This document shows positions 1,528-64,000 of a stretch of 64,000 nt of DNA, piece by piece. This DNA is from Desulfofarcimen acetoxidans DSM 771 (GTDB taxonomy: Bacteria > Bacillota > Desulfotomaculia > Desulfotomaculales > Desulfofarciminaceae), in assembly GCF_000024205.1 (NCBI RefSeq), contig NC_013216.1:4154001-4218000 (forward strand), in the 5' to 3' direction. Made by a program: the position numbers and the translations under genes. Below the pieces are notes generated by a model. It was not told the origin of the DNA. It did not search any database and worked only from the letters and a program-made list of their open reading frames with translations. Each line of letters starts with the position of its first letter. The first letter of the stretch is position 1.

Positions 1528-4146
1528 TTATTTGCCCCGGCCGCAGCACTTCTTATATTTCTTGCCGCTGCCGCAGGGACACTGATCATTGCGACCCACC
1601 TTATCCTCTTTTCTTACAGGTTGCTTCGGGCCGTCTTCATAGCGGTTCTCAGTCACCTGCACCGCCTTTTGTTCAGGCGGCTGCACCAAAACAACCCTGT
1701 AAACATAACGCACAACATCTTCCTGAATAGAGTCAATCATATTCTGAAACATTTCATAGCCTTCAAACTTATACTCTACCAGGGGATCCTTCTGACCGTA
1801 GGCCCGCAGGCCCACGCCTTCCCGCAGCTGATCCATGGCATCCAGGTGATCCATCCATTTCTCATCCACAATCTTGAGAATAACCACCCGTTCCAATTCA
1901 CGCATGGTCTCATAACCCAGCTCGGCTTCCTTGGCATTATAAATATCCAGGGCTTTCTCCAGAATAAAATCTCTTAGATCTTTCTTGCCTCGGTCTTCCA
2001 ACTCCCCGACAGTCAGATTATGATCAGGCAGGAAAAGCTGTTCCGCCTGCTCCAACAGGCCCGCCAGATCCCATTCCTCCTGGTAAACACCTTCCGCAGC
2101 ATATACGTTCAGCACATTATCAACAACTTTTTCAATCATCTGGCGAACGTTTTCCTGCATATTTTCACCGGCCAGCACTTCCCGCCGCTGCTTGTAAATA
2201 AGCTCCCTTTGCTGGTTCATCACATCATCATACTGCAGCACATGCTTACGGGCATCGAAGTTGCGGCTTTCCACGCGTTTCTGGGCGGTTTCGATAGACT
2301 TGGTGATCAAAACATGCTCAATGGGCACATCTTCTTCCAAACCCAGCTTATCCATAAGGCCTGAGATATTCTCCGCACCAAAAAGCCTCATTAAATCATC
2401 TTCCAGGGAACTGAAAAACTGGCTGGAGCCAGGATCTCCCTGACGACCGCCGCGGCCCCGCAGCTGGTTGTCAATTCTCCGGCTTTCATGTCTCTCCGTA
2501 CCCATTATATGCAGACCGCCCAGATCGAGCACACGGTTGCGCTCTTCTTCCGTCAGCCGCCTATACTTTTCCAGAATTTCAGCACATTCCTGCTTCTGCT
2601 CTTCAAGACTAAGTCCCTTGGAACGGATTTCCGCCTGGGATAAAAACTCCGGGTTGCCCCCCAGCAAAATATCAGTACCCCGGCCAGCCATATTGGTAGC
2701 AATAGTTACTGCTCCAAAACGCCCGGCCTGAGCTACGATTTCCGCTTCTTTCTCATGAAACTTGGCATTTAAAACCTGGTGGGGAACACCTTTTCTCTTC
2801 AGCATGGCGCTTAAAACTTCTGATTTCTCGATAGAAATAGTGCCCACCAGTATAGGCTGGCCGTTGGCATGACGCGCGGCGATATCCTCAACCGCCGCGT
2901 TGAATTTAGCATTCTCAGTCTTATACACCACATCCGGCATATCTTTTCTGATATTGTCCTTATTGGTGGGAACAACCACCACATCCAACCCGTAAATCTT
3001 GCGGAATTCCTCTTCTTCAGTAGCCGCAGTACCGGTCATACCGGCCAGCTTGTTATACATGCGGAAATAATTCTGAAAAGTAATAGTAGCCAGTGTCTGT
3101 GATTCCCTCTCGATATGCACTCCTTCCTTGGCCTCTATGGATTGGTGCAGCCCGTCGCTGTAGCGGCGGCCGAACATCAAACGACCGGTAAACTCATCGA
3201 CAATAATTACCTGACCCTCTTTGACCACGTAATCACGGTCCTTCTTCATCAGCGCGTGAGCTTTTAAGGCCTGGTTCAAATAATGATTGAGCTGCATATT
3301 GGAATCATCGAAAAGATTGCCCACACCCAAAAGCTTTTCCGCATGCGCCACGCCCTCTTCGGTCAGGGCCACTGTATGCGCCTTCTCATCTACAGTATAG
3401 TCTTTTTCCACTGTCAGCCTGGGCACCAGTTTGGCAAAAGTATAATAGTGATCTGTGGCTTTATCTGCCTGGCCCGAGATAATCAGCGGTGTGCGGGCCT
3501 CGTCAATTAAAATGCTGTCCACCTCGTCCACAATGGCATAATTTAATTGCCGCTGCGCCAGGTGCTCCGGGTGAACAGCCATATTATCCCTCAAGTAATC
3601 AAAACCAAACTCATTATTAGTACCGTAAGTAATATCAGAACCATAAGCCGTCTTGCGCTCGTATTGATCCAGACCGTGCACAATGAGACCCACGGAAAGT
3701 CCCAAAAACTTGTAAATGTGTCCCATCCACTCACTGTCACGACGGGCCAAATAATCGTTAACCGTGACCACGTGTACGCCTTGACCGGTGAGAGCATTTA
3801 AATATACCGGCAGAGTTGCCACCAGAGTTTTACCTTCACCGGTCTTCATCTCAGCTATGCGGCCCTGGTGCAGCACCATCCCGCCGATCAGCTGAACATC
3901 AAAATGCCTCATGCCCAGCACCCGCCTGGAGGCCTCGCGCACCAAGGCAAAAGCCTCCGGCAGCAAGTTATTTAAATCTTCGCCTCGCTCCAGGCGATCC
4001 CTGAAAACTATCGTCATATTCTGCAGCTCTTGATCAGCAAGCCCCGTCAGGCCGGCTTCCAGAGCATTTATTTTATCTATCTCGCGCTGCAATTTTTTCA
4101 CTTCTCTGGCATTATCATCAAACCAATCACGAATAAACCTTAACAT
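1528..4146 (-). CDS. secA: Preprotein translocase ATPase SecA
   Basis: SecA is the cytoplasmic motor that drives unfolded preproteins through SecYEG. The protein has the Walker A motif MKTGEGKT near residue 100, the DEAD-type segment around [15 protein letters not shown], the central helical scaffold, and a C-terminal zinc-binding tail [13 protein letters not shown] that binds SecB or phospholipid in relatives. The start at 4146 (MLRFIRDWF) is chosen over the upstream in-frame ATG at 4173 because AAAGGTGG lies just before it. The resulting 872 residues are normal for Firmicutes. It is followed at 16 nt by prfB and preceded by hpf, a conserved order in clostridia. Confidence 0.97.
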
Positions 4147-43694: not shown

Positions 43695-43842
43695 AAGCTC
43701 CGATAAAAAGCATTATGAAAGGCCAACCACCTTTCCGATGATTGGCCTTTCTTGAATTATCAAATTAAATCGTGTTGCATCTGAGTCTTGGGGGGAGAAT
43801 AATTGGTAGTCATTTACGGGGCCAGGCCCTAGGAAATGTAAG
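43695..43842. repeat. R repeat copy 2
   Basis: CATTATGAAAGGCCAACCAC...GATTGGCCTTT, TCGTGTTGCATCTGAGTC and GGGGCCAGGCCCTAGG occur in the same order as in the other R copies. Confidence 0.85.
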
Positions 43843-43989
43843 CATGTCTTGACAGTTTTTTACTGGGTCGAGTAGAAGTGAGCCTCTCAAACTTTAGGAG
43901 ACGCTTTGTGTTCCCTGTTTCTCCCCGTTTCCTCTGGGAGTGTCACAATATATGCTCCATGACCTGATTGGACTCAAACAACGATAGGT

Positions 43990-45105
43990 AAGGGTCTTCC
44001 TCGCACATTACCGGAAATGGTTATGCCGTTCGGAAGCCCTTTTCCCCCGTTTCGCACCGGACTTGACACTTTCGCGTCATCCGGCGCTCCATCAACCTTA
44101 CTTGCTAACTTTGTTCAACTTTTCTCTCATCCTGTTTAGTTTACGTAATATAGGCTTAGATAGATTTAGCTTAATTTCATTGCTATGAACTAATTCGTGA
44201 CATGTTTTGCAGACACTGGCTAGATTAGGTACACGATTTATAAGTTTCAAAGGTAAGCGTTCATTAATATGATGGAATTCGATGGTGATTCCATTAAGTT
44301 TTACACCACATATTTTGCAATTACCTCTGTCCCGATTTAATACGTATCCCCGGTTGAGAAAGTACTCAAAATTATACTTTGGGTGGATGCTCGAACTGTG
44401 TGTAATTTTATTGATGAAATGACTGCTGAGCAATTCGTCATCTCTTGGCAGCCTTCGGAATTTATCGGTACGTTTCCGGTATAATTCCCTTCCGACTGGG
44501 GTATATGGAGTTTCATCCTGGTTCTTTTGTTTGGTTTTTCTCCATTTACAATATTACAATGAGGTAACTCCAATGATCTGATTACCATATTTGACAGCAG
44601 GGATCATAGATGCATACATGTTGTGAACTGTTGTCAGGTTGTTTACCTCATTTGCCAGGACAAGCCTTCCCCCATATTTCTTGATTTCCCGAAAGGCCAA
44701 GCGTTTTATTACCCAGGAGTATTTACTAAGATCCGAGCAGAGCTGCGTTGCAGGTTGATAGTAATTAATAAGTCCACGAATTATGCTATTGACTTTATAG
44801 ATCTGACAGATTGCCAGATCTATGTTTACACATCTTCCAATCCGTTTTATCTGTTTTCGGATTTCGAATACTTTTTGCTTCAGCCGGTTAGGGTTGGGTC
44901 GGGTCTTTGATACGTGTCCCTTTCTGGCTTTTCCTGATGGAATAACTTTGTAAGTAAATCCGAGAAACTCAATGGGCTTCTTTTTAATATTGGTGATTTG
45001 CGTTTTATCTTCAGACAGTGTAAGCTTAAGTTGATCCTGTAGATACTGTTACAGTTGTTTCTTCCATTTTTCTGCATTTAGTTTTGTATCGGTTATCAGA
45101 ACCCG
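43990..45105 (-). pseudogene. Group II intron 0 remnant: RT-maturase C-terminus with HNH domain
   Basis: Reading from 45105 the frame gives RVLITDTKLNAEKW, a stop, then KTQITNIKKKPIEFLGFTYK and the maturase part (SIIRGLINYYQPATQ). It ends at a stop near 44570 and resumes in another frame as an HNH endonuclease (44433-44098: CKICGVKLNG...HHINERLPLK...CKTCHELVH). A domain V-like hairpin lies at 44054-44087 and the 3' end near 43990. The N-terminal half, up to the YADD motif, is missing. 43843-43989 holds the 3' exon flank and nothing else recognised. Confidence 0.8.
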
Positions 45106-45332
45106 GTGAGTAGCCCCAGGGAATCTCACCCCGAGGCCCTCTCAGGTAGGGTCGAGGACAGGCGCGGTAGCAGTTCTAGACCTTGTGAGGCCAATCCGGT
45201 TCTCTCCTTTCGGGCGAGTGTCCCCCTCAAGCGGGTCATCTGCCCCGTTTCCAACCCCCGCCTCGTCAAACGCAGCGTGCAGATTTCCCGCACTGCGCTT
45301 TCCTGCTAACTTCACATCAAGGGTTATGTGAC

Positions 45333-45877
45333 CTATTGTGCTGGCAGCGCTTTCGGATTTTTGTAGTGCCGTATCTTATAATCCGAGTATAAACCTAAGT
45401 TCTGATACAGCCAATTCCTACTCCACCTGTCCCAGCCAAAGCCTTTGAGATTACGGGCTCGCATTAGATGTCGCCGTACTTTCTTCTCAATCCAGTCCTT
45501 TACATAGCCAAAGCAGCGACCGGAGTTCCCAACTCGATAGTAATTCACCCATCCACGTAGAACAGGGTTAATGAGTTCAATAACTCTGCTCACTGGTTGT
45601 GATTGAAAACGACGAAATGTTTCTTTTAGTTCGGTCAATATTTTGGTGCGTGCTTTCATTTTTGGTGTAAATAGTACTCCCCATTTACCTTTGCGAGTTC
45701 GGCTCCTTCGAAAGTCAAAGCCTAAGAAGCCAAAACTTTCTCCGTTGGCTAGGTTTACTATCCGGGTTTTCTCTTCATTAAGTTGCACGCCAAGTTTTGT
45801 TAACTCTTCAAGTAAGCGCTGATAGACAGCCTTTTCCAACCAATTCCATTTAGGGTAAGCATCAATTAGAATCACAA
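45333..45877 (-). pseudogene. Intron 2 RT-maturase, C-terminal part (split by intron 3)
   Basis: This is the second exon of the intron 2 protein: V-I-L-I-D-A-Y after the catalytic aspartates, thumb and maturase (GFLGFDFRRSRTRKG, GWVNYYRVGNSGRCFG). It joins 47740-48517 in frame if intron 3 is removed at 45878/47739, giving 440 codons and a stop (1323 nt). As it stands the protein cannot be made without splicing. Confidence 0.9.
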
Positions 45878-47739
45878 GGTGAGTAGCCCCAGGGAATCTC
45901 ACCACGAGGCCCTCTCAGAACCGGACTTGAACCTCTTAGCTCATCCGGCTCCCATTATCCAGCCGCAGGACAAATCCCCATTTGCCAATGTATGAACAGC
46001 TTCGGTTCACGCCTGGCAATCTTGCCGAGCCAATAAGTCGCCCGCCGTTTGTGAGTAGCGAATTTCTTAAACTTTCGTTGCACCCAGCGGACTAAGGCCC
46101 GGTCCATGTGCCTGAGTACAGAATACAGTTCCGACTTGTAAAAGCGCCCGTAATAGTTTACCCAGCCTCTGATTACCGGATTAAACATACGCGATAAGTC
46201 TTCAAGTGCCTTGTCCGGTTTCAGATGTACACGCCAATCATGAATGGTTTGACGCATAGCCTTTTTCGCTTTATTACTAGCTGCCGGGGTGAAGTTGACA
46301 AAGTGCTTTCCGTATTTGTTCTTAGACCTGCGCGGCCGGAAGGTGTAGCCCAGAAAGTCGAATTTGGTTTCTTGATGTTCACCTCGCCGATCGTCGTCTT
46401 TGCAATAGACAATGCGGGTCTTGTCCGGATGGAGTTCTAACTCACATTCCGCAAACCGCTCCTTTAAGCTGTCATGAAGTTTTTCCGCATCTTTCTTGCT
46501 GCGGCAGTGTGCTACACTATCATCGGCATAACGAGCGAATGGCTTGTCGGGATGATTCCGTGCCATCCATACATCATACGCATAGTGCAGGAACAAATTA
46601 GCTAGAACGGGACTAATGACGCCTCCCTGCGGAGTACCTTTTGTACGTTCCTTGAGCATGCCATCTGGCATTTGAAAAGGTGCTTTGAGCCATCTCTGAA
46701 TGTAGAGTATAACCCATGGGTTATCGGTATGTTTGCGGACAGCTTTCATCAATAAGTCATGGTTAATATTATCGAACAGACCTTTGATATCGAACTCCAG
46801 CACCCAGTCATACTTCCAGCATCGCTGCCGGGTAACAGCTAGCGCATCAACTGCTGATTTTCCTGGCCGATACCCATAAGAGTCCGGGTGGAAATGTGGC
46901 TCCACAAGCGGCTCAAAATATATTTTGGCCACCATCTGTGCTACCCGGTCTGCCACAGTGGGTACCCCGAGTATTCTCTTACCACCGGTTTTCTTGGGTA
47001 TTTCCACAGCTTTAACGGGCGGGGGAAAATAGCTACCAGAAGACATCCTGTTCCAAATCTTATATAGGTTGTTCTTCAAGTTTGCTTCAAATGCTTCCAG
47101 ACTTTCGTCGTCTATTCCGGCTGCCCCCTTATTTGCTTTCACTCGTTGAAATGCCTCCAGCACTACGTGCTTGGAGATTTCGTACGGCTTTGTTTTGTTC
47201 ATTGGCTCCTCCCTTATGGTTGACCTTTGTTCAAAACTGGATAACACAGCCCCTTCGTTCCACTCCCATTACGGAGCTTCATCACTACTACAGGCTGTTC
47301 CGCCCCTGCTCTCCGCATCGATACTTTCGTCCTTGCGGGTCTTCCACTTGGAGTTTTCTCTTAGCATCGGAGGGCAGGTTCCCACGTTCCTAACCAAAGC
47401 CTGTGCCACGTTCACGCCGCCTTCATGCCGGCCACCACCTGGACAGTAAACAGGTTTCCTCCAGATTTATCCCGGGTTAACGACTACCCTCCGGTTTTGA
47501 TGACATCCCTACGCTTTCGACACTTTATCAGCGGTTCACGGGTGTTCGTCTCCATTGGCACTTACCTGACAAAGTCATGCTTCGCCTTTTCCGTAACGCT
47601 CACCACCATGGCTTTTGACCACAGCAGCTTACGGTGGTTTGGAGCCTCTACCTGCATAGCGGCTCCGAGGGGCCTTCCCTCATCTTTGGTTAAGCATAGC
47701 TTACGGGCTTTTAGCTAGCCCTACGCCTTCGTGGCGCAC
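45878..47739 (-). mobile_element. Group II intron 3, inserted in the intron 2 RT gene
   Basis: The 5' end GTGCGCCACGAAGG is at 47739 and the 3' end GGCTACTCACC at 45878, the choice that restores the reading frame of the host RT (D-D-I-V). Domain V occupies 45918-45951 (34 nt, beginning GAGCCGGATGAGC). Domain VI is a short stem GGTGAG / CTCACC. It carries a full RT gene. Length is 1862 nt. Confidence 0.9.
45955..47202 (-). CDS. ltrA: Group II intron reverse transcriptase-maturase (intron 3)
   Basis: This intact 415-residue intron-encoded protein helps splicing and copies the intron into new sites by retrohoming. RT domain motifs: GGKRILGVPTVADRVAQ, YGYRPGKSAVDA, GTPQGGVISPVLANL and the catalytic FARYADD. 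The thumb/maturase part (FLGYTFRPRRSKNKYGKHF, NPVIRGWVNYYGRF) runs to the C-terminus. No HNH endonuclease is present, so it resembles group IIC/bacterial-class proteins that prime from the host strand. The start at 47202 has GGGAGGAG upstream; 47247 lacks this. Confidence 0.95.
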   Translation of the reverse strand: MNKTKPYEISKHVVLEAFQRVKANKGAAGIDDESLEAFEANLKNNLYKIWNRMSSGSYFPPPVKAVEIPKKTGGKRILGVPTVADRVAQMVAKIYFEPLVEPHFHPDSYGYRPGKSAVDALAVTRQRCWKYDWVLEFDIKGLFDNINHDLLMKAVRKHTDNPWVILYIQRWLKAPFQMPDGMLKERTKGTPQGGVISPVLANLFLHYAYDVWMARNHPDKPFARYADDSVAHCRSKKDAEKLHDSLKERFAECELELHPDKTRIVYCKDDDRRGEHQETKFDFLGYTFRPRRSKNKYGKHFVNFTPAASNKAKKAMRQTIHDWRVHLKPDKALEDLSRMFNPVIRGWVNYYGRFYKSELYSVLRHMDRALVRWVQRKFKKFATHKRRATYWLGKIARREPKLFIHWQMGICPAAG

Positions 47740-48517
47740 TATCATCGGCAAACCGAGCATATTCAATGTATGTGTATTGTTCATGCCGTGTTACTTCTTT
47801 TGCCTTTTCAAGCATTTTATCTACCTCATTGAGATATAAATTTGCTAAGAGCGGAGAAATAACACCCCCTTGAGGAACGCCCCGTTTGCCACTAGCTTTG
47901 AGTATAAGCTTCAGCAGCCGCATCACGTTTTCGTCGTTGACTCTTTTTGCTACCTTCTTGAGTAATAAGTCATGGCGAACTGTATCAAAATAAGACCTTA
48001 AATCAAGATCGATAACACGTGTTTTATTTTCCACAACTGCTTTTGCTACTCTGTCAATTGCTTGGTGGGGATTCCGCTTAGGTCGGTATCCATATGACCC
48101 TTCTTGGAAATCAGCCTCGAATATTGGCTCAAGTATAAGCTTGAGTGCTCCCTGAACTACCCGATCGCGAATTGTTGGTATACCCAATATCCTATATTTA
48201 CCATCATCCTTAGGAATTTCTTTTCTACGGTTCTGGGTCGGCCAATACGTACCAGAGATAAGTTCCTTTTGTATTTGTTGCAGAAATATTTCTATCCCGC
48301 TTGCCTCAATATTGTCAAAGGTTATACCATCAATTCCGGGTGCTCCATTTTTATTTTTGGCCATTTTGTAAGCTTCTTGGAGTGTTTCTATCTTACATAC
48401 GTGAACGTACAATCCCCAAAATCTCCAGGTTTTATCGGCCTTCGCCTTGATGTATATCTTCCTTCTCAGGTCCTGTATGTTTATGGACGCCTTTATCATC
48501 TCGTCCTTACCCCCCAT
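47740..48517 (-). pseudogene. Intron 2 RT-maturase, N-terminal part (split by intron 3)
   Basis: RT0 to the catalytic motif: AYKMAKNKNGAPGIDGITFD, GIPTIRDRVVQGALKLIL, YGYRPKRNPHQAID, GVPQGGVISPLLANLYLN and YIEYARFADD, where intron 3 begins. In the unspliced reading the frame adds SAPRRRRAS and stops. The start is ATG 48517 or 48499. Confidence 0.9.
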
Positions 48518-49149
48518 CTTGTTGGAAGAATTGCTAACAGTAGGGTTCCTTTGCTTCCCCGGTATTACCCAGGTTCATTGCTCCTACGAACCCATCCACC
48601 ACCCTCTTGCCTTCAATTCATTTCCCAGTGTTTCTGGTTATAGAATCTACCTTTTTCTAAAAATTTCTTTTTAGGGCAAGGAGGGCTTCTCCAGTTGCTC
48701 AGTGTATCCTTGTTACCATGCTGTCGCTACCACCCCGCCGAAGTGGAACAGTTGTATCAGTCAGTTTTCAACTGTCCATGCTGCTTTCACCCTACGGTTG
48801 CGGGCTCAGCCTTCGGGACTACGCACTTTCGAGGCCACCTATGCGTTCGCTTTCGCTACGGCCTGGCAACTCGCTATCATCCCTTGGATAATATTGTCGA
48901 TAGACTCCAGAATCTCAGTTTCCTTTAACCCTGCTATCCTAGCTACAAGGTTTCTGACTTTTACCTCGGCAGGTTTCTCCCCTGCTGAATACACCAGCCT
49001 TTGCTGGACATACAACCGGACATGCAGTTTTCCCGCATCCGGCTCTTCATACTACCATTTACATAATATAGCCTATATCCTTACTTAGTTCAAAGATGTT
49101 TCTAGTGGGATTCTCACCCACTTCATGATACGCCCTTTACTTGGCGCAC

Positions 49150-49212
49150 GGGCAGACTCCAGGGAGGAATTGTAAATAACGCTTTTTGTTATTTGCAATT
49201 CCGACTCGAGCA
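49150..49212. repeat. H element 6, abutting intron 1
   Basis: GGGCAGACTCC (half of the palindrome) is followed by GAATTGTAAATAAC...GTTATTTGCAATTC and TCGAGCA (49206-49212). It is the same element as at 56743-56805. Intron 1 begins exactly at the palindrome (49149). A broken reading frame (ELGLMVFFASENSSLL, minus strand, about 49213-49275) runs into it. Confidence 0.75.
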
Positions 49213-58415: not shown

Positions 58416-58811
58416 TTATAAGCTCCTCTTCTGATTTACTGGATGCTTATAAGCTTTAAGACCTTTTCTTCTAAAATTGCTTCTTCCTGGACGAATAGGG
58501 ATCTTGTTACGTGAGATTTGCTCCATTATCTGGTGAAACATTGCATTTCGCTTTTCAGGATTGTCTTCAAGTAACATAAGTACCAATGAATCTTTTAATT
58601 TACCAATTAGTACGTTTGCATTAACCTTGTACTCATATTTTAAATTTTTATCCTCATTATTTAGCGCAATTTTCTCGTTTGCTTCTTGTTTAGTAAGTGC
58701 CACCATATTTGATAGATAAATGGAGGCATAGAAATCTTGCTCAATGGAAATAGTCGTATCTCCTGTAAAATTTTCAATTTGGAGTCTGCTTTTTAGTTCA
58801 TTATATTTAAC
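58416..58811 (-). pseudogene. IS4-type transposase, 3' exon
   Basis: The frame reads VKYNELKSRLQIENFTGDTT, SIEQDFYASIYLSNMVALTK and on to HPVNQKRSL, the C-terminal part of an IS4-family DDE transposase. The matching 5' part lies at 63758-64000 and beyond. A group II intron is inserted between them. Confidence 0.85.
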
Positions 58812-58960
58812 CTGTCGGGTAAAGGACTGGCGCGGTATCAGTTCTGACCCGTTTCCAACCCCTCCCCATAAGAACTGCTCGTGAGGTTTTCCCTCAAGCA
58901 GCTCACCCCGTAAACTCAGTCAGAAGGGTTATGGGACCTATCGAATGGTGGACACTTTCA

Positions 58961-59632
58961 TCAGTATCCATCTGCTCTCCTAAGGGGATGGACTTTCCAG
59001 TCCCAGTAGAGCCCAAGCACACCGTAGAGATACTCGTTACTCCATCTCCGCCACCCGATGCTACACTTTCGTCTCCGTTTTCTTCTCGATAGCAGTGTTC
59101 GGATTTTCATCTCCGTATAGTCGCGTACTTCACTAAATGCACGGCTGGAATTTCCAACCCGGAAGTAGTTTACCCATCCGGACAATTTAGCGTTAACTTG
59201 TTTCACTATGTCCGTTGCAGGTTTTGAACCCCCGTTTTTAATTGCATTGCGAATTCCCGCTTTGATATTAATACGGGCTTTCTTTTTCGGTGTCATAAGT
59301 ATGAAGTATCCGGAACTGCTTCGATTTTGTACTCGCCTAAAGTCAAACCCCAGAAAGGAGAAAGATTCGCCCTTTAGGACGTTAACCATTCGGGTTTTAT
59401 CCAGATTGAGTTCAACTCCCAAGGGTTCCAGTTGTTCATGCAATCGCTGTAATGCTCGTTCAGCCCATCCACGTTTGCTGGAGTGTCCGCTTACCGTAAT
59501 TACCATATCATCGGCAAACCGATGATAGTTAATCGCCTCGTAGTTACCTTCCGCTGTTTTAAGCCTAATGGCATTGAATGTCCAATCGACATCATTTAGG
59601 TATATATTAGAAGCTAATGGAGAAAACGGACC
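58961..59632 (-). pseudogene. Intron 4 RT-maturase, C-terminal part
   Basis: From the junction: GPFSPLASNIYLNDVDWTFN, HRFADDMVITVSGHSSK, then FLGFDFRRVQNRSSSGYFIL and the maturase GWVNYFRVGNSSRAFSEV. It is complete to the C-terminus; the upstream part is at 59945-60564. No HNH domain. Confidence 0.88.
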
Positions 59633-59944
59633 TCCTTATGCAAAGAAAGTAATTATGCAAAGTAGGAAAGTAAAATACTCGAAAAACAAGTAGTTTTGGT
59701 TCATTTACTTTGCATAATAATCTAAAGTCAAAAGCGATATTGGACTATCTAAACTCGAAAATATTGCTTCCGAGCATCATAATGATTGGTAATTGGCCTG
59801 GTATTTCGGAAGTTTATTGCTTCCAGATCAATATATTATGCAAAGTAAATCAGGATTAATTACACAAAAAACGCCAGTTCCAGTAGTTAACTTTGCATAG
59901 TCTTCCACTTTGCATAAGGGGGTCTATGCAAAGCTTTGCATAGG
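59633..59944. mobile_element. 312-bp MITE-like element with paired TATGCAAAGT repeats
   Basis: Each end carries two copies of TATGCAAAG 18 bp apart in the same orientation, facing inward (59636/59654 and 59890/59908). More copies lie inside (about 59706, 59837), and the right end adds a 20-bp palindrome CTATGCAAAGCTTTGCATAG. No ORF. It interrupts the RT gene between TPQGG and GPFSP. Paired end repeats suggest binding sites for a tyrosine recombinase or transposase supplied elsewhere. Confidence 0.8.
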
Positions 59945-60564
59945 CCGCCTTGTGGGGTCCCTTCGGGTGTAGGTTTTATTTTACCTTTTTCCATATACCC
60001 TGCTTTTAGCATCTGCTGTATTAGCCCAAGCACGCGTCCGTCACTAACTCTTTCAGCTACCATGTCAATCAATTTATCGTGCGCAACACTCCCAAAATAA
60101 TCTTTTAAATCCGCATCGACAATCCAGTGGTAGCCATTCATCAATTCAACCCAAATCTTTCGCATAGCATCATGTGGGGAACGTCCGGGTCTATATCCAA
60201 AACTGCAATCATTAAATTCCGGTTCAAATATTGGTTCAATTCTGTTTTTCAGCGCCTGCTGACACACGCGATCACGTATGGCCGGAATTCCCAGTGGGCG
60301 TTTTTCATTCGGTTTATCCCGTTTCGGTATATTCACTCTACGCACGGGCAAGGGGTTATATGTTTCTCCTTTAAGTTCCATATGAAGCTTTTCAAGTTCT
60401 TCATCTGCTACTTTGTCAAATGTCGTAATGCTAACTTTATCTATTCCGCCTACTCCTTGATTGGCCTTAACCCTTTGCCATGCCATTTGTAAGTTGGTTT
60501 TGCTGTATACTTTATCAATTAATGAATGAACCTTTAATCTATTTGTCGCGCCTACTTCACTCAT
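59945..60564 (-). pseudogene. Intron 4 RT-maturase, N-terminal part
   Basis: SEVGATNRLKVHSLIDKVYS, GVGGIDKVSITTFDKV, GIPAIRDRVCQQALKNRIEP, FGYRPGRSPHDAMRKIW and GTPQGG, where the MITE begins. The ATG at 60564 has GGAGGAG upstream and is preferred to 60639. About 600 nt of intron RNA (60640-61205) precede it. Confidence 0.85.
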
Positions 60565-61275
60565 TGCAAAACAGTCTCCTCCGTTGCAAGTTCTGGGTCT
60601 TTCACGCAGGGAACTATCCTTCCCCTGCAACATACTCACTGCTCCTCACAGAGGTTTTAGCTCAATAGAGTAAATCGACTTCCCTCCAATAGTTACCTTT
60701 TGGGTAACCATGGACCATCCCCTTGCGAATGATCCCGGCGTTTTTGTTGTTCACCGGTTAAAGTACTATTCGATTCTCCGACTCCTCGCACCGCTTCAAC
60801 ATTCACTTCGGTATTACCTTATAGAATGCCTTACTGGATGCTATGCTTGTCTGAGCAGGACGGCCGTGCACAGCAACCACCATCCCGACTATGTTTACCC
60901 ACCAGTCCATTTTGGTGCACTAACCAGACGATACGAGGTCTCCGTGGGTCACATAACTATCTTCCATACCATGCCGCCCGCAAACACCTTGGTACGACGG
61001 GTGAACTAGAACGCCTTCGCCTCCATAGTGCAGGCTCGACCTTGCCCCGTCTTTGGCCGACCGGTTCATCACTAGGGTTGCCCCTTCGATTACAGCCTGG
61101 TATTTCTCCTCAAGCCCGTCAGATTCCACCTCGCGGTGGACACCCTGCCCTCCGGGGTTAACCCGGCCCTCGAGACATTACCCCCGAGTATTGGATATAA
61201 ATCTCCTAGCGGGAGTTTACGAATTATTAGAAACAGATCCCTTCTATGCCAGCAATCACAAGGCATCGGAGGGAT

Positions 61276-63156
61276 AAAAGTGTATTACCCACCAAGTGCA
61301 TACTTCCCTATATCTAAAACCTCTAATAATCTCTTTTCTTCAGCAGATATTTTCGTTAATGAAAAACACTCCCTGTCCTTTTTTGAATTACCCTTCTTTG
61401 GATAAACGGTAATAACCTGTTTAATATCAGATAATCTTGACAGCATTTTGTTTATACTCATTTTAAGGCCATTTTCATGCAGAACGCGGTTTAACAAACA
61501 ACAAAGTCTTAAGGCCAGCACGCAATAGAAAGCATGAACTTTAATTTTTTGATCAGTCCAATGATGTATTGGACGAAAACCTAAAAATGTAGTGTCTTTC
61601 ATTTGCCTAAAATCGTCTTCTATATGATATTGTGATCTGTATGTGGAGATTATCTTATCATTTGGCCAATCATGATTATCCGTAAATAAGACTGTCTTGC
61701 CAAGAAAATGTTCTTTAACATAGTTAAATTGTTTGATATTAATAGAAAAATCAAGATGAGCAAGACCATCTTGTTCATATATCTGAACATCGAAAATATC
61801 ACTCATAAACTCGCCGTGAAGAATAGTGGCAACATTTTTTTGTACAGATGTAACCGTGGGCTTACGCCCTTTTGTAGTTACACCGGCAACACGATCAAGT
61901 AATGATTTCTGCAGTACTCGTAACTTAAGAGTACATTTTTCAATATTAATTGCAATGCTCTGCATCTGTCCGGCAAATAACTCAGGATTGCAAACCACTA
62001 AAACTGTCATTTCCCGGTTATAAACGGAAAGCGTAGTCCGGTATGCCTTAACATTTCTAAAATTATCACTGTTAACCGACTCGTATTCTTGAATTGGAAT
62101 ATCAAGCAAGGATTTATTTTGAGAAAGCCTAAGAGAACCTACAACATTAAAAGCAAATTCACCGCTCATAACAAGATCCATATTATTTAGAGAATTGTTT
62201 CCCTTATCAAAAACAAGGGTTGCATTTCCCGGTTTACCGCAAATATTAATATAGCGGTTCTTAAGTTTCTCAATAACTGCCTTAAACTCAACAGAGTCGT
62301 TGTCATTGCCCGGATAAACATCATAAAAAAGAGGGACATTGAAATCGGGAGTAACCATCATTGCTAAACCGACAATCTTCAAATCAGACCTCTTTTCCTT
62401 GCTGTGGCCCCGTTGTGGTAACTTATCGGCTGATAACGTATCAATATATGTAAAAAAGTTGGTTGCATCGTAAATAAGCAAATCGGTAGAAAGATTATAT
62501 TTATCAACGATAAGTTGCGTAAATTCATTTTCAAAACTCTCAATAGCTGAGTCAGATAATAAACTCATATTATCCCAGAATCTTTGACTTGTTAATGATT
62601 GTTTTGGAGCAGGCAGCATTCTATAAAGCATTGTTTTATCATACCATTCACCAATTTGGAACTTGCTAACAGGTTTAACGACCCTGTTTATAGCAGCCAG
62701 CAGCATATATTCTCCGACACTTAACCCTTGTTCGCGTTTGGGAGCATACTTATCAATTATTTCAATAACACCGAGCTGCTTGGCAATATCATACAAAGCA
62801 CACACGGTGCCAAACTCTAAAACAATACTGTACTTGGGATTTTCCAAATCAGATTTGCCTTCAACAGCCTTGGCAATATCCTCGGCACGTCCAAGATATT
62901 TTTGCCGGACAATTCTTGGCTTACCGTTAACTCGGGCAGACTCTACCAGATAGTAATAAAATTGATTTTTTTTCTTCTTTTTAATGATCGAAGCCATGGA
63001 AACCTCCCTTTATTATGGTAGGGTAATACATAACTTCGACACTTATGCATAAAATTCCTGCATACATCAATAAAGTCTTTGAAATTAAGCATTTCATAAC
63101 CAAAAAACATGTCTAAAATGTTAAATATGAGTTATGCGGTAGGGTAATACACTTTT
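61276..63156 (-). mobile_element. IS1634-type insertion sequence
   Basis: The 15-bp perfect terminal inverted repeats AAAAGTGTATTACCC are at 61276-61290 and 63142-63156, giving 1881 bp. A similar internal motif GGTAGGGTAATACA is at about 63016. The transposase stop codon lies inside the left repeat. No target duplication is evident next to the ends. Confidence 0.85.
61285..62997 (-). CDS. IS1634-type DDE transposase
   Basis: This 570-residue transposase (IS4 superfamily) begins MASIIKKKKKNQFYYYLVES. Features typical of the family: STDLLIYDATNFFTYID (first catalytic D), TLVFDKGNNSLNNMDLV (second D region) and IISTYRSQYHIEDDFRQMKD (Y-x-x-R-x-x-I-E). It looks full length and intact, so the element may be active. 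Confidence 0.92.
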   Translation of the reverse strand: MASIIKKKKKNQFYYYLVESARVNGKPRIVRQKYLGRAEDIAKAVEGKSDLENPKYSIVLEFGTVCALYDIAKQLGVIEIIDKYAPKREQGLSVGEYMLLAAINRVVKPVSKFQIGEWYDKTMLYRMLPAPKQSLTSQRFWDNMSLLSDSAIESFENEFTQLIVDKYNLSTDLLIYDATNFFTYIDTLSADKLPQRGHSKEKRSDLKIVGLAMMVTPDFNVPLFYDVYPGNDNDSVEFKAVIEKLKNRYINICGKPGNATLVFDKGNNSLNNMDLVMSGEFAFNVVGSLRLSQNKSLLDIPIQEYESVNSDNFRNVKAYRTTLSVYNREMTVLVVCNPELFAGQMQSIAINIEKCTLKLRVLQKSLLDRVAGVTTKGRKPTVTSVQKNVATILHGEFMSDIFDVQIYEQDGLAHLDFSINIKQFNYVKEHFLGKTVLFTDNHDWPNDKIISTYRSQYHIEDDFRQMKDTTFLGFRPIHHWTDQKIKVHAFYCVLALRLCCLLNRVLHENGLKMSINKMLSRLSDIKQVITVYPKKGNSKKDRECFSLTKISAEEKRLLEVLDIGKYALGG

Positions 63157-63757
63157 TCTTCATCAATACCACTTTTTAATTGCAAAAAAGTCCTTTAAAA
63201 TCAAGGCCTCCACTAGTTTTTTAGATGATAATTTCTGTTCATTTGTTCATAACGACATGCTAATTCGTAAACTCCCGCTAGTCCGAGATTCAGTGGGACT
63301 TTAACCCACCTGACAGATATGCTGCCACGCACACACTACGATCCGTTCCGCCACCCTGACATCTGTCGTCCCACTTCCCGATCACGGTTATAGGGATAAC
63401 CTCCTCGATGAGTTTTCTTCACCGGATGTCGAGGGTTTCTCCAGTTTCCACAATATCTTTCACTCCATGTCGCCGTTGATACCCCGCCGGTGAGCACTGC
63501 CGTTTCAGACTCTTTTCGGTCAGCACTTGTTGCTTTCGCACGTTATCGACCGTCTCAGCCACCGGATTTCGTGTAACGAGGCTACATCTACGTTCATTGT
63601 GATTACAACCTGGAGTTTCGCTCACACTCCTTGAGTGTGTTGTCAAAGGGCTTCACCGTTTCATTTTCACTCCACGGTGCCTCTCAAGCTACGGGAGTGA
63701 AGTCTTTTCTCCCGGTCGGACTTTCACCGACTAGACATTGTGTCCTTAACTGGACAC

Positions 63758-64000
63758 GCCAATCCCCCAACGTTTAAAATAAAGCTCCTTGAACTCCTGG
63801 ATACTAAAGTTTTCATCCAATAAATTAGTGACGAGGATCTCTTCCTCTCCGGAATCTAACATTAGTCGAATAACACGAATCTTGAACGGTTCTTTTTTAA
63901 CATTTACCACGACAATCTGATCGGGTTTCCTAGCCTCATTGACTTCTTTAATTTTTCGATTAGTTCAATGGCAATGTCCCTCTCGCCGGTAGTATATCTG
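63758..64000 (-). pseudogene. IS4-type transposase, 5' exon (runs off the window)
   Basis: The frame reads KPDQIVVVNVKKEPFKIRVI, then EEEILVTNLLDENFSIQEFK and ELYFKRWGIG, ending where the intron begins. Joined to 58811 it continues VKYNEL as in intact relatives. A one-base loss near 63908 (EKLK-EVNEA) shifts the frame, so the gene was also mutated apart from the intron. Confidence 0.8.

Follow-up and report, generated by a model that had tools for sequence, protein, structure and literature searches.

A collapsed nest of group II introns in Desulfofarcimen acetoxidans whose members probably served as homing sites for one another

A 64,000-nucleotide stretch of the Desulfofarcimen acetoxidans DSM 771 genome (NC_013216.1, positions 4,154,001 to 4,218,000; hereafter the window) holds, on its minus strand, a genuine nest of five stacked group II introns. 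Read from the outside inwards, their original order was probably X, H, A, B, A, and the locus is very probably what remains, after collapse, of stacked mobile introns that served as each other's homing sites. Two families dominate the account: type B (Rfam group-II-D1D4-4), found repeatedly at the domain V/VI junction of other group II introns, and type A (Rfam group-II-D1D4-2), found just past the YADD codons of group II reverse transcriptase (RT) genes. Only the inner two introns, a type B intron (intron 2) with a type A intron (intron 3) in its RT gene, appear intact; the outer three, namely a D1D4-6 intron (X), an intron with an RT-HNH pseudogene (H) and a further type A intron (intron 1), are relics. 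Loci and genomes used for comparison are cited by L and G numbers, respectively.

Between 44 and 49.2 kb the Rfam model RF00029 finds four domain V matches on the minus strand (51.0 bits at 44089, 49.8 at 45953, 35.7 at 45302 and 29.1 at 49047), all of which were recovered by a separately trained domain V model with E values of 1e-9 to 3e-7. D1-D4 cores lie on the same strand at 48987-48851 (D1D4-4) and 47681-47564 (D1D4-2). With four domains V in this interval and not one, the proposal of an earlier note that group II introns are nested here is borne out. A second, uninterrupted copy of intron 2 is present on the same chromosome (L037, 1,927,102-1,929,147), where the empty site of intron 3 reads GATGATA/TTGTG (slashes mark insertion points). 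Once intron 3 is removed, intron 2 is 2006 nucleotides long and has 6 differences from this copy (99.7% identity), and its two RT halves, between which the protein model TIGR04416 is divided at 216/217, join into one frame of 440 amino acids with 3 amino acid differences. Because the uninterrupted copy exists in the genome, the boundaries of both introns and the 440-codon frame are proven. Intron 3 lies one base past the FADD codons of the intron 2 RT. Both it and intron 2 have, to the base, the ends that the earlier note had given them, and the frame is as precisely restorable as that note had claimed. Excision of intron 3 (1862 nucleotides) would yield GATGATATTGTG in the intron 2 RT RNA.

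Both inner introns have the parts of a group II intron: D1-D4 cores (RF02003, 107 bits; RF01999, 124 bits), domains V found by Rfam and by our own model, and an encoded RT/maturase (438 bits in intron 3; two halves, joined, in intron 2). They also pair with the 5' exon through exon-binding site 1 (EBS1) and intron-binding site 1 (IBS1), with strong covariation in type B and consistent pairing at 4-6 of 6 positions in type A. A protein domain search found no endonuclease domain in the intron 3 RT.

Type B introns recur at one position in other group II introns. We searched 252.6 kb around B introns with a domain V model (R1) trained on 19 domains V outside the tested target sites. The 5' end of B was readable at 23 distinct loci, and at 16 of them a domain V ends at the base immediately before it (the window, L037, L046, L048, L049, L050, L052, L055, L056, L058, L233, L234, L235, L236, L237 and L240); the other matches were the introns' own domains V and a handful belonging to other introns. 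Most of these copies have a domain VI as their 3' flank, and the two flanks, once joined, reproduce the domain V-VI sequence of uninterrupted introns, for example TCCGGTT/CTGAGAGGG; at L046 the restored junction matches that of uninterrupted A introns. Insertion of one intron precisely inside another, with the host restored on removal, is therefore seen in the empty site of L037, in the restored RT frame and in the domain V-VI junction of L046. The hosts span four D1-D4 families: D1D4-2 (L046, L234, L236), D1D4-3 (L048), D1D4-4 (L233) and D1D4-6 (L237 and X of the window). Some have intact RTs: at L046, where the nest lies within an IS1182-like transposase, the RT frames of B and of its A host are both open, and in plasmid nests of Caballeronia and Bradyrhizobium the RTs of host and B are both annotated as ltrA. 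Cultured strains that carry B nested in a host include Caballeronia sp. SBC2 (pSBC2-3), Bradyrhizobium japonicum S06B-BJ (p2S06B) and Desulfofustis glycolicus DSM 9705. Nest-bearing taxa come from several phyla (Peptococcaceae, Desulfofustis, Desulforhopalus, Geobacteraceae, Chlorobiota, Cupriavidus, Caballeronia, Paraburkholderia and Bradyrhizobium), and scans of IMG/VR returned only distant or partial relatives. B is also found in X-type introns elsewhere (L226, L237), and G469 carries it at the domain V/VI junction of X.

Two further arrangements were observed among the B loci. At L052 (31-3451) a B intron is inserted directly after the domain V of another B, so that the family homes into itself. 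Upstream of the Caballeronia nest (L234, 571-1277) lie two more consecutive D1D4-2 matches and an extra domain V, which suggests a deeper, older stack.

To locate EBS1 in type B, we aligned 21 B introns and tested, at each column, how well six intron bases pair with the intron's own last six 5'-exon bases. At intron positions +212 to +216, pairing is 5.50 of 6 with the intron's own exon versus 3.30 of 6 with the exons of others (0 of 2000 permutations), a difference of 2.20 where the next best column gives 0.49, and EBS1 is predicted to lie here. The predicted EBS1 of the copies inserted at a domain V is mostly AACCGN, the complement of the 3' strand of domain V (NCGGTT); on this strand the target of intron 2 is CCGGTT in the window and ACGGTT at L037. 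Copies at other sites have EBS1 sequences altered to match (GGGTCT for AGACCC at L051, and ACTTTT for AAAAGT), and at six of these seven sites the 45 nucleotides upstream form no notable hairpin (fold z -1.2 to +1.7). Because EBS1 covaries with the target even away from domain V, where six of the seven sites lack an unusual hairpin, recognition by type B looks like ordinary EBS1-IBS1 pairing with domain V as its favoured target.

Type A introns lie mostly in RT genes. In 10 of 15 loci the 5' exon ends in [YF][AG]D[DA] codons plus one base, and for most of these copies the 5' flank is recognisably group II RT sequence, as is the 3' flank where it is readable. The type A EBS1, near +255, is AGTCGT, the complement of ACGAT(T/A), and type A introns at other sites have exact EBS1 matches at 6 of 6 positions (GTACTG with CAGTAC, GTAGGC with GCCTAC). 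Because B carries an RT gene and A carries a domain V, each can host the other: B lies in A at L046, L234, L236 and L039, and A lies in B in the window. The order B-A-RT is repeated at L039, which is identical to the window at 90.7% of positions in B, 97.6% in A and 63.8% in the RT; this last, low value suggests that the two nests were assembled separately and not duplicated.

The outer layers of the nest differ from those drawn in the earlier note. That note had intron 1 as one intron from 49149 to 45106, and its outermost level was intron 0 (here H, 45104-43978). A single intron beginning at 49149 was rejected because the 136 nucleotides 49149-49014 consist of two pieces, each matching a different part of D1D4-6 introns; the proposed intron 1 is a chimera of these X pieces and a type A domain VI (45145-45105), with its 3' boundary at 45105. 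In related genomes with X-type introns, a long and characteristic domain VI comes after domain V; since the window has this domain VI at 43977-43867, X spans from 49149 to about 43867. X is inserted in a REP-like repeat (ggagtctgccc/.../ccagtaaa). X-type introns seem to insert into a repeat family with the motif ccctaggGTCTGGCCCCgtaaa, which has many copies in the region (window 43700-43867 and 49150-49212; several places in L043).

What is left of intron 1 lies inside the RT of the broken intron H, and the same 41-nucleotide piece is present in L039. Its empty site is seen in G413 (L225), where the uninterrupted H RT reads GACGATT/GGGTTCT. The H RT of the window has internal stops, and its HNH domain (PF01844) was detected; the 3' boundary of H (43978) is placed solely where homology switches from G413 to X. 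H was rejected as the outermost intron because its 3' end abuts the domain VI of X in the window and, in G413, the domain VI of a type A intron within an IS1182-like transposase. The view that every level keeps a 5' end, domain V or 3' end of its own holds only loosely, because intron 1 had been pieced together from two introns and the outermost intron, X, overlooked. Also in G413 (L225, 1740-4190), a fusion within the RT gene joins a type A intron's 5' half to the 3' half of an H intron, beside the short palindromic element described further on.

Table 1. Parts of the intron nest in the window, with the evidence for each
Feature	Position	Strand	Evidence
Intron 2, type B (Rfam group-II-D1D4-4)	45146..49013	-	RF02003 107 bits at 48987-48851; interrupted by intron 3
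Intron 2, predicted EBS1 (AACCGT, intron position +215)	48794..48799	-	covariation scan, 21 B introns
Intron 2, RT/maturase gene, 5' half, ending in FADD codons	47740..48517	-	TIGR04416 positions 2-216
Intron 2, RT/maturase gene, 3' half	45333..45877	-	TIGR04416 positions 217-352
Intron 2, own domain V	45303-45267	-	domain V model R1, 48.3 bits
Intron 3, type A (Rfam group-II-D1D4-2), 1862 nucleotides	45878..47739	-	RF01999 124 bits at 47681-47564; RF00029 49.8 bits at 45953-45878
Intron 3, RT/maturase reading frame, intact, 414 amino acids from ATG	45955..47199	-	TIGR04416 438 bits; RVT_1 and GIIM domains
X, outermost intron (Rfam group-II-D1D4-6 type), collapsed	43867..49149	-	homology to D1D4-6 introns in related genomes
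X, 5' end	49149-49099	-	86-88% identity to 5' ends in G419, G492 and L043
X, RT C-terminus and domain V	49100-49014	-	85% identity to four G476 copies, 82% to G492
X, domain V, abutting intron 2 5' end	49014..49047	-	RF00029 29.1 bits; domain V model R1 50.2 bits, E 1e-9
X, domain VI tail	43977-43867	-	up to 92% identity over 43979-43867 to long domain VI of G476 copies
Intron 1 relic (type A), domain VI and 3' end only, 41 nucleotides	45105..45145	-	97.6% identity to last 41 nucleotides of intron 3
H relic, 3' half of RT-HNH pseudogene and 3' end, in X domain VI	43978..45104	-	73% identity to G413 over about 1128 nucleotides
H, domain V	44090-44053	-	domain V match

From the insertion sites, their exact boundaries, the EBS1-IBS1 covariation and the recurrence of the pattern, all read directly from the sequences, we infer a retrohoming route. 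Type B would reverse-splice into the exact domain V/VI junction of another group II intron, its EBS1 AACCGN guiding it to NCGGTT, and type A, with AGTCGT as its guide, would enter a group II RT gene by reverse splicing one base past the YADD codons. With A entering B through the RT gene and B entering A through domain V, alternating nests would arise, such as the A in B in A of the window. Splicing would run from the inside out, and because removal of the inner intron would restore the RT frame or the domain V-VI junction of the host, an insertion need not kill it. The flanks of intron 2 come from different introns, the domain V of X on the left and a type A domain VI on the right. Recombination between a B at the domain V of X, as in G469, and a B inside A could have produced this arrangement, and would have removed almost the whole of intron 1 together with the 5' half of H and the start of X domain VI. 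The loss of 3868 nucleotides that the earlier note expected as a second splicing step would at most restore a chimeric junction between the domain V of X and the domain VI of A.

Several observations weigh against reading the locus as a stack of introns homing into one another. Seven of the 23 B copies have no adjoining domain V; among these, the copy at L038 follows a terminator-like hairpin (fold z -2.7), that at L051 lies inside D1 of a D1D4-6 intron (between 2044 and 4033) with an EBS1, GGGTCT, that matches the site exactly, and that at L238 lies in IS66-like DNA. In the window itself, the EBS1 AACCGT has one mismatch to CCGGTT, and the reciprocal product of the recombination was not found. 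The L038 copy would fit the idea that type B recognises any stem-loop, domain V being merely one common hairpin, in the manner of class C (IIC) introns, whose insertion sites follow terminator motifs (PMC4424553). We consider this unlikely, since the other six sites without a domain V show no notable hairpin, EBS1 tracks a six-nucleotide sequence at these sites as well, and 16 of the 23 sites are genuine domains V, mostly with domain VI on the far side.

The mixed flanks of intron 2 could also mean that the outer layers were joined by ordinary deletions or by an assembly error, and that no B intron inserted into the domain V of X here. The left junction is, however, the exact B site of 15 other loci, G469 has B in the domain V/VI junction of X, and the window lies within a single contig of 4.55 Mb, which makes this explanation less probable still. 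Finally, a domain V directly upstream of D1-D4 (49047, then 48987) is the order found in natural circularly permuted group II introns (PMC8637638), which would make circles with no insertion at all. Intron 2 and its relatives nevertheless have their own domains V and VI downstream of the RT, and the domain VI of the interrupted host follows B; a permuted intron at this locus is refuted by the second, downstream domain V, and we give the idea hardly any credence. The nest of mutually homing introns remains our preferred reading.

The depth of the nest, which the earlier note had considered rare, is not new, because twintrons, and nests as deep as five introns, have been described in bacteria and archaea (PMC4424553, PMC2882425, PMC4649490). 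Up to five nested group II introns are reported in Methanosarcina acetivorans (PMC4424553, PMC2882425, summarising Dai and Zimmerly 2003), together with deletion via recombination (PMC4424553). As summarised there, these nests resemble the window in repeated site-specific homing into group II introns, balanced by recombinational deletion, and in having no coding flanks; unlike for the window, the summaries describe no domain V/VI junction target, EBS1 evidence or reciprocal A/B relation. The twintrons TeI3/TeI4 of Thermosynechococcus elongatus (PMC2882425) likewise show one family homing to a constant position within another group II intron, but their inner introns lack reading frames, lie between the first two ATGs of the RT frame and form a single family pair, unlike A and B. 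Type A shares with RmInt1 and class D (PMC5894124) an RT without a recognised endonuclease domain and, in a class D comparison made by identity alone, is 64% identical to Sinorhizobium meliloti plasmid RTs; unlike them it mostly targets the YADD codons of group II RTs, with transposase sites also used (L046). Type B resembles class C in lacking a recognisable endonuclease domain and in inserting just after a stem-loop, but it has an RF02003 D1-D4 core and six-nucleotide EBS1 pairing, and its stem-loop is a group II domain V. Whereas class C introns insert after terminator or attC stem-loops, type B targets domains V or EBS1-matched sites without hairpins, L038 excepted. In the open-access papers searched, which did not include Dai and Zimmerly 2003 or Toro 2002, the likeliest places for a similar account, we found no report of domain V/VI-junction homing across intron classes or of a reciprocal pair.

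Elsewhere in the window, another D1D4-4 group II intron lies at 58800-63760 on the minus strand; its host gene is apparently an IS4-like transposase (YFKRWGI, followed by GCGTGTCCAG; gene names were assigned by reading the sequence). Inverted copies of ctagcgggagtttacgaatta flank an IS1634-like transposase gene (about 63000-61290) that interrupts this intron, and an element of about 330 bp interrupts the intron's RT. In two separate group II RT genes of this genome (window 59630-59965; L170, about 1935-2245), a short element with the ends ATGCAAAG and CTTTGCAT lies at the PQGG codons. A search of the genome turned up no further copy; G413 has a related junction (L225, about 3045-3065). This element may be site-specific for RT genes.

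Taken beyond this locus, the evidence makes it rather probable that type B is a phylum-crossing intron family specialised to parasitise group II introns by pairing with domain V, and that a second family attacks RT active-site codons, in a reciprocal and potentially self-propagating ecology. Domain V is the most conserved part of the group II ribozyme and the counterpart of spliceosomal U6. An intron that lands on it would have somewhere to insert wherever a genome contains group II introns, and its hosts would stay functional if it splices. For annotation, the pattern is a warning that a domain V directly upstream of D1-D4 may be an insertion and not a permuted intron. For the biology of these elements, it would offer a concrete system for retroelement hyperparasitism, for the ordered splicing of nested ribozymes and for the evolution of EBS1 toward a near-unchangeable target.
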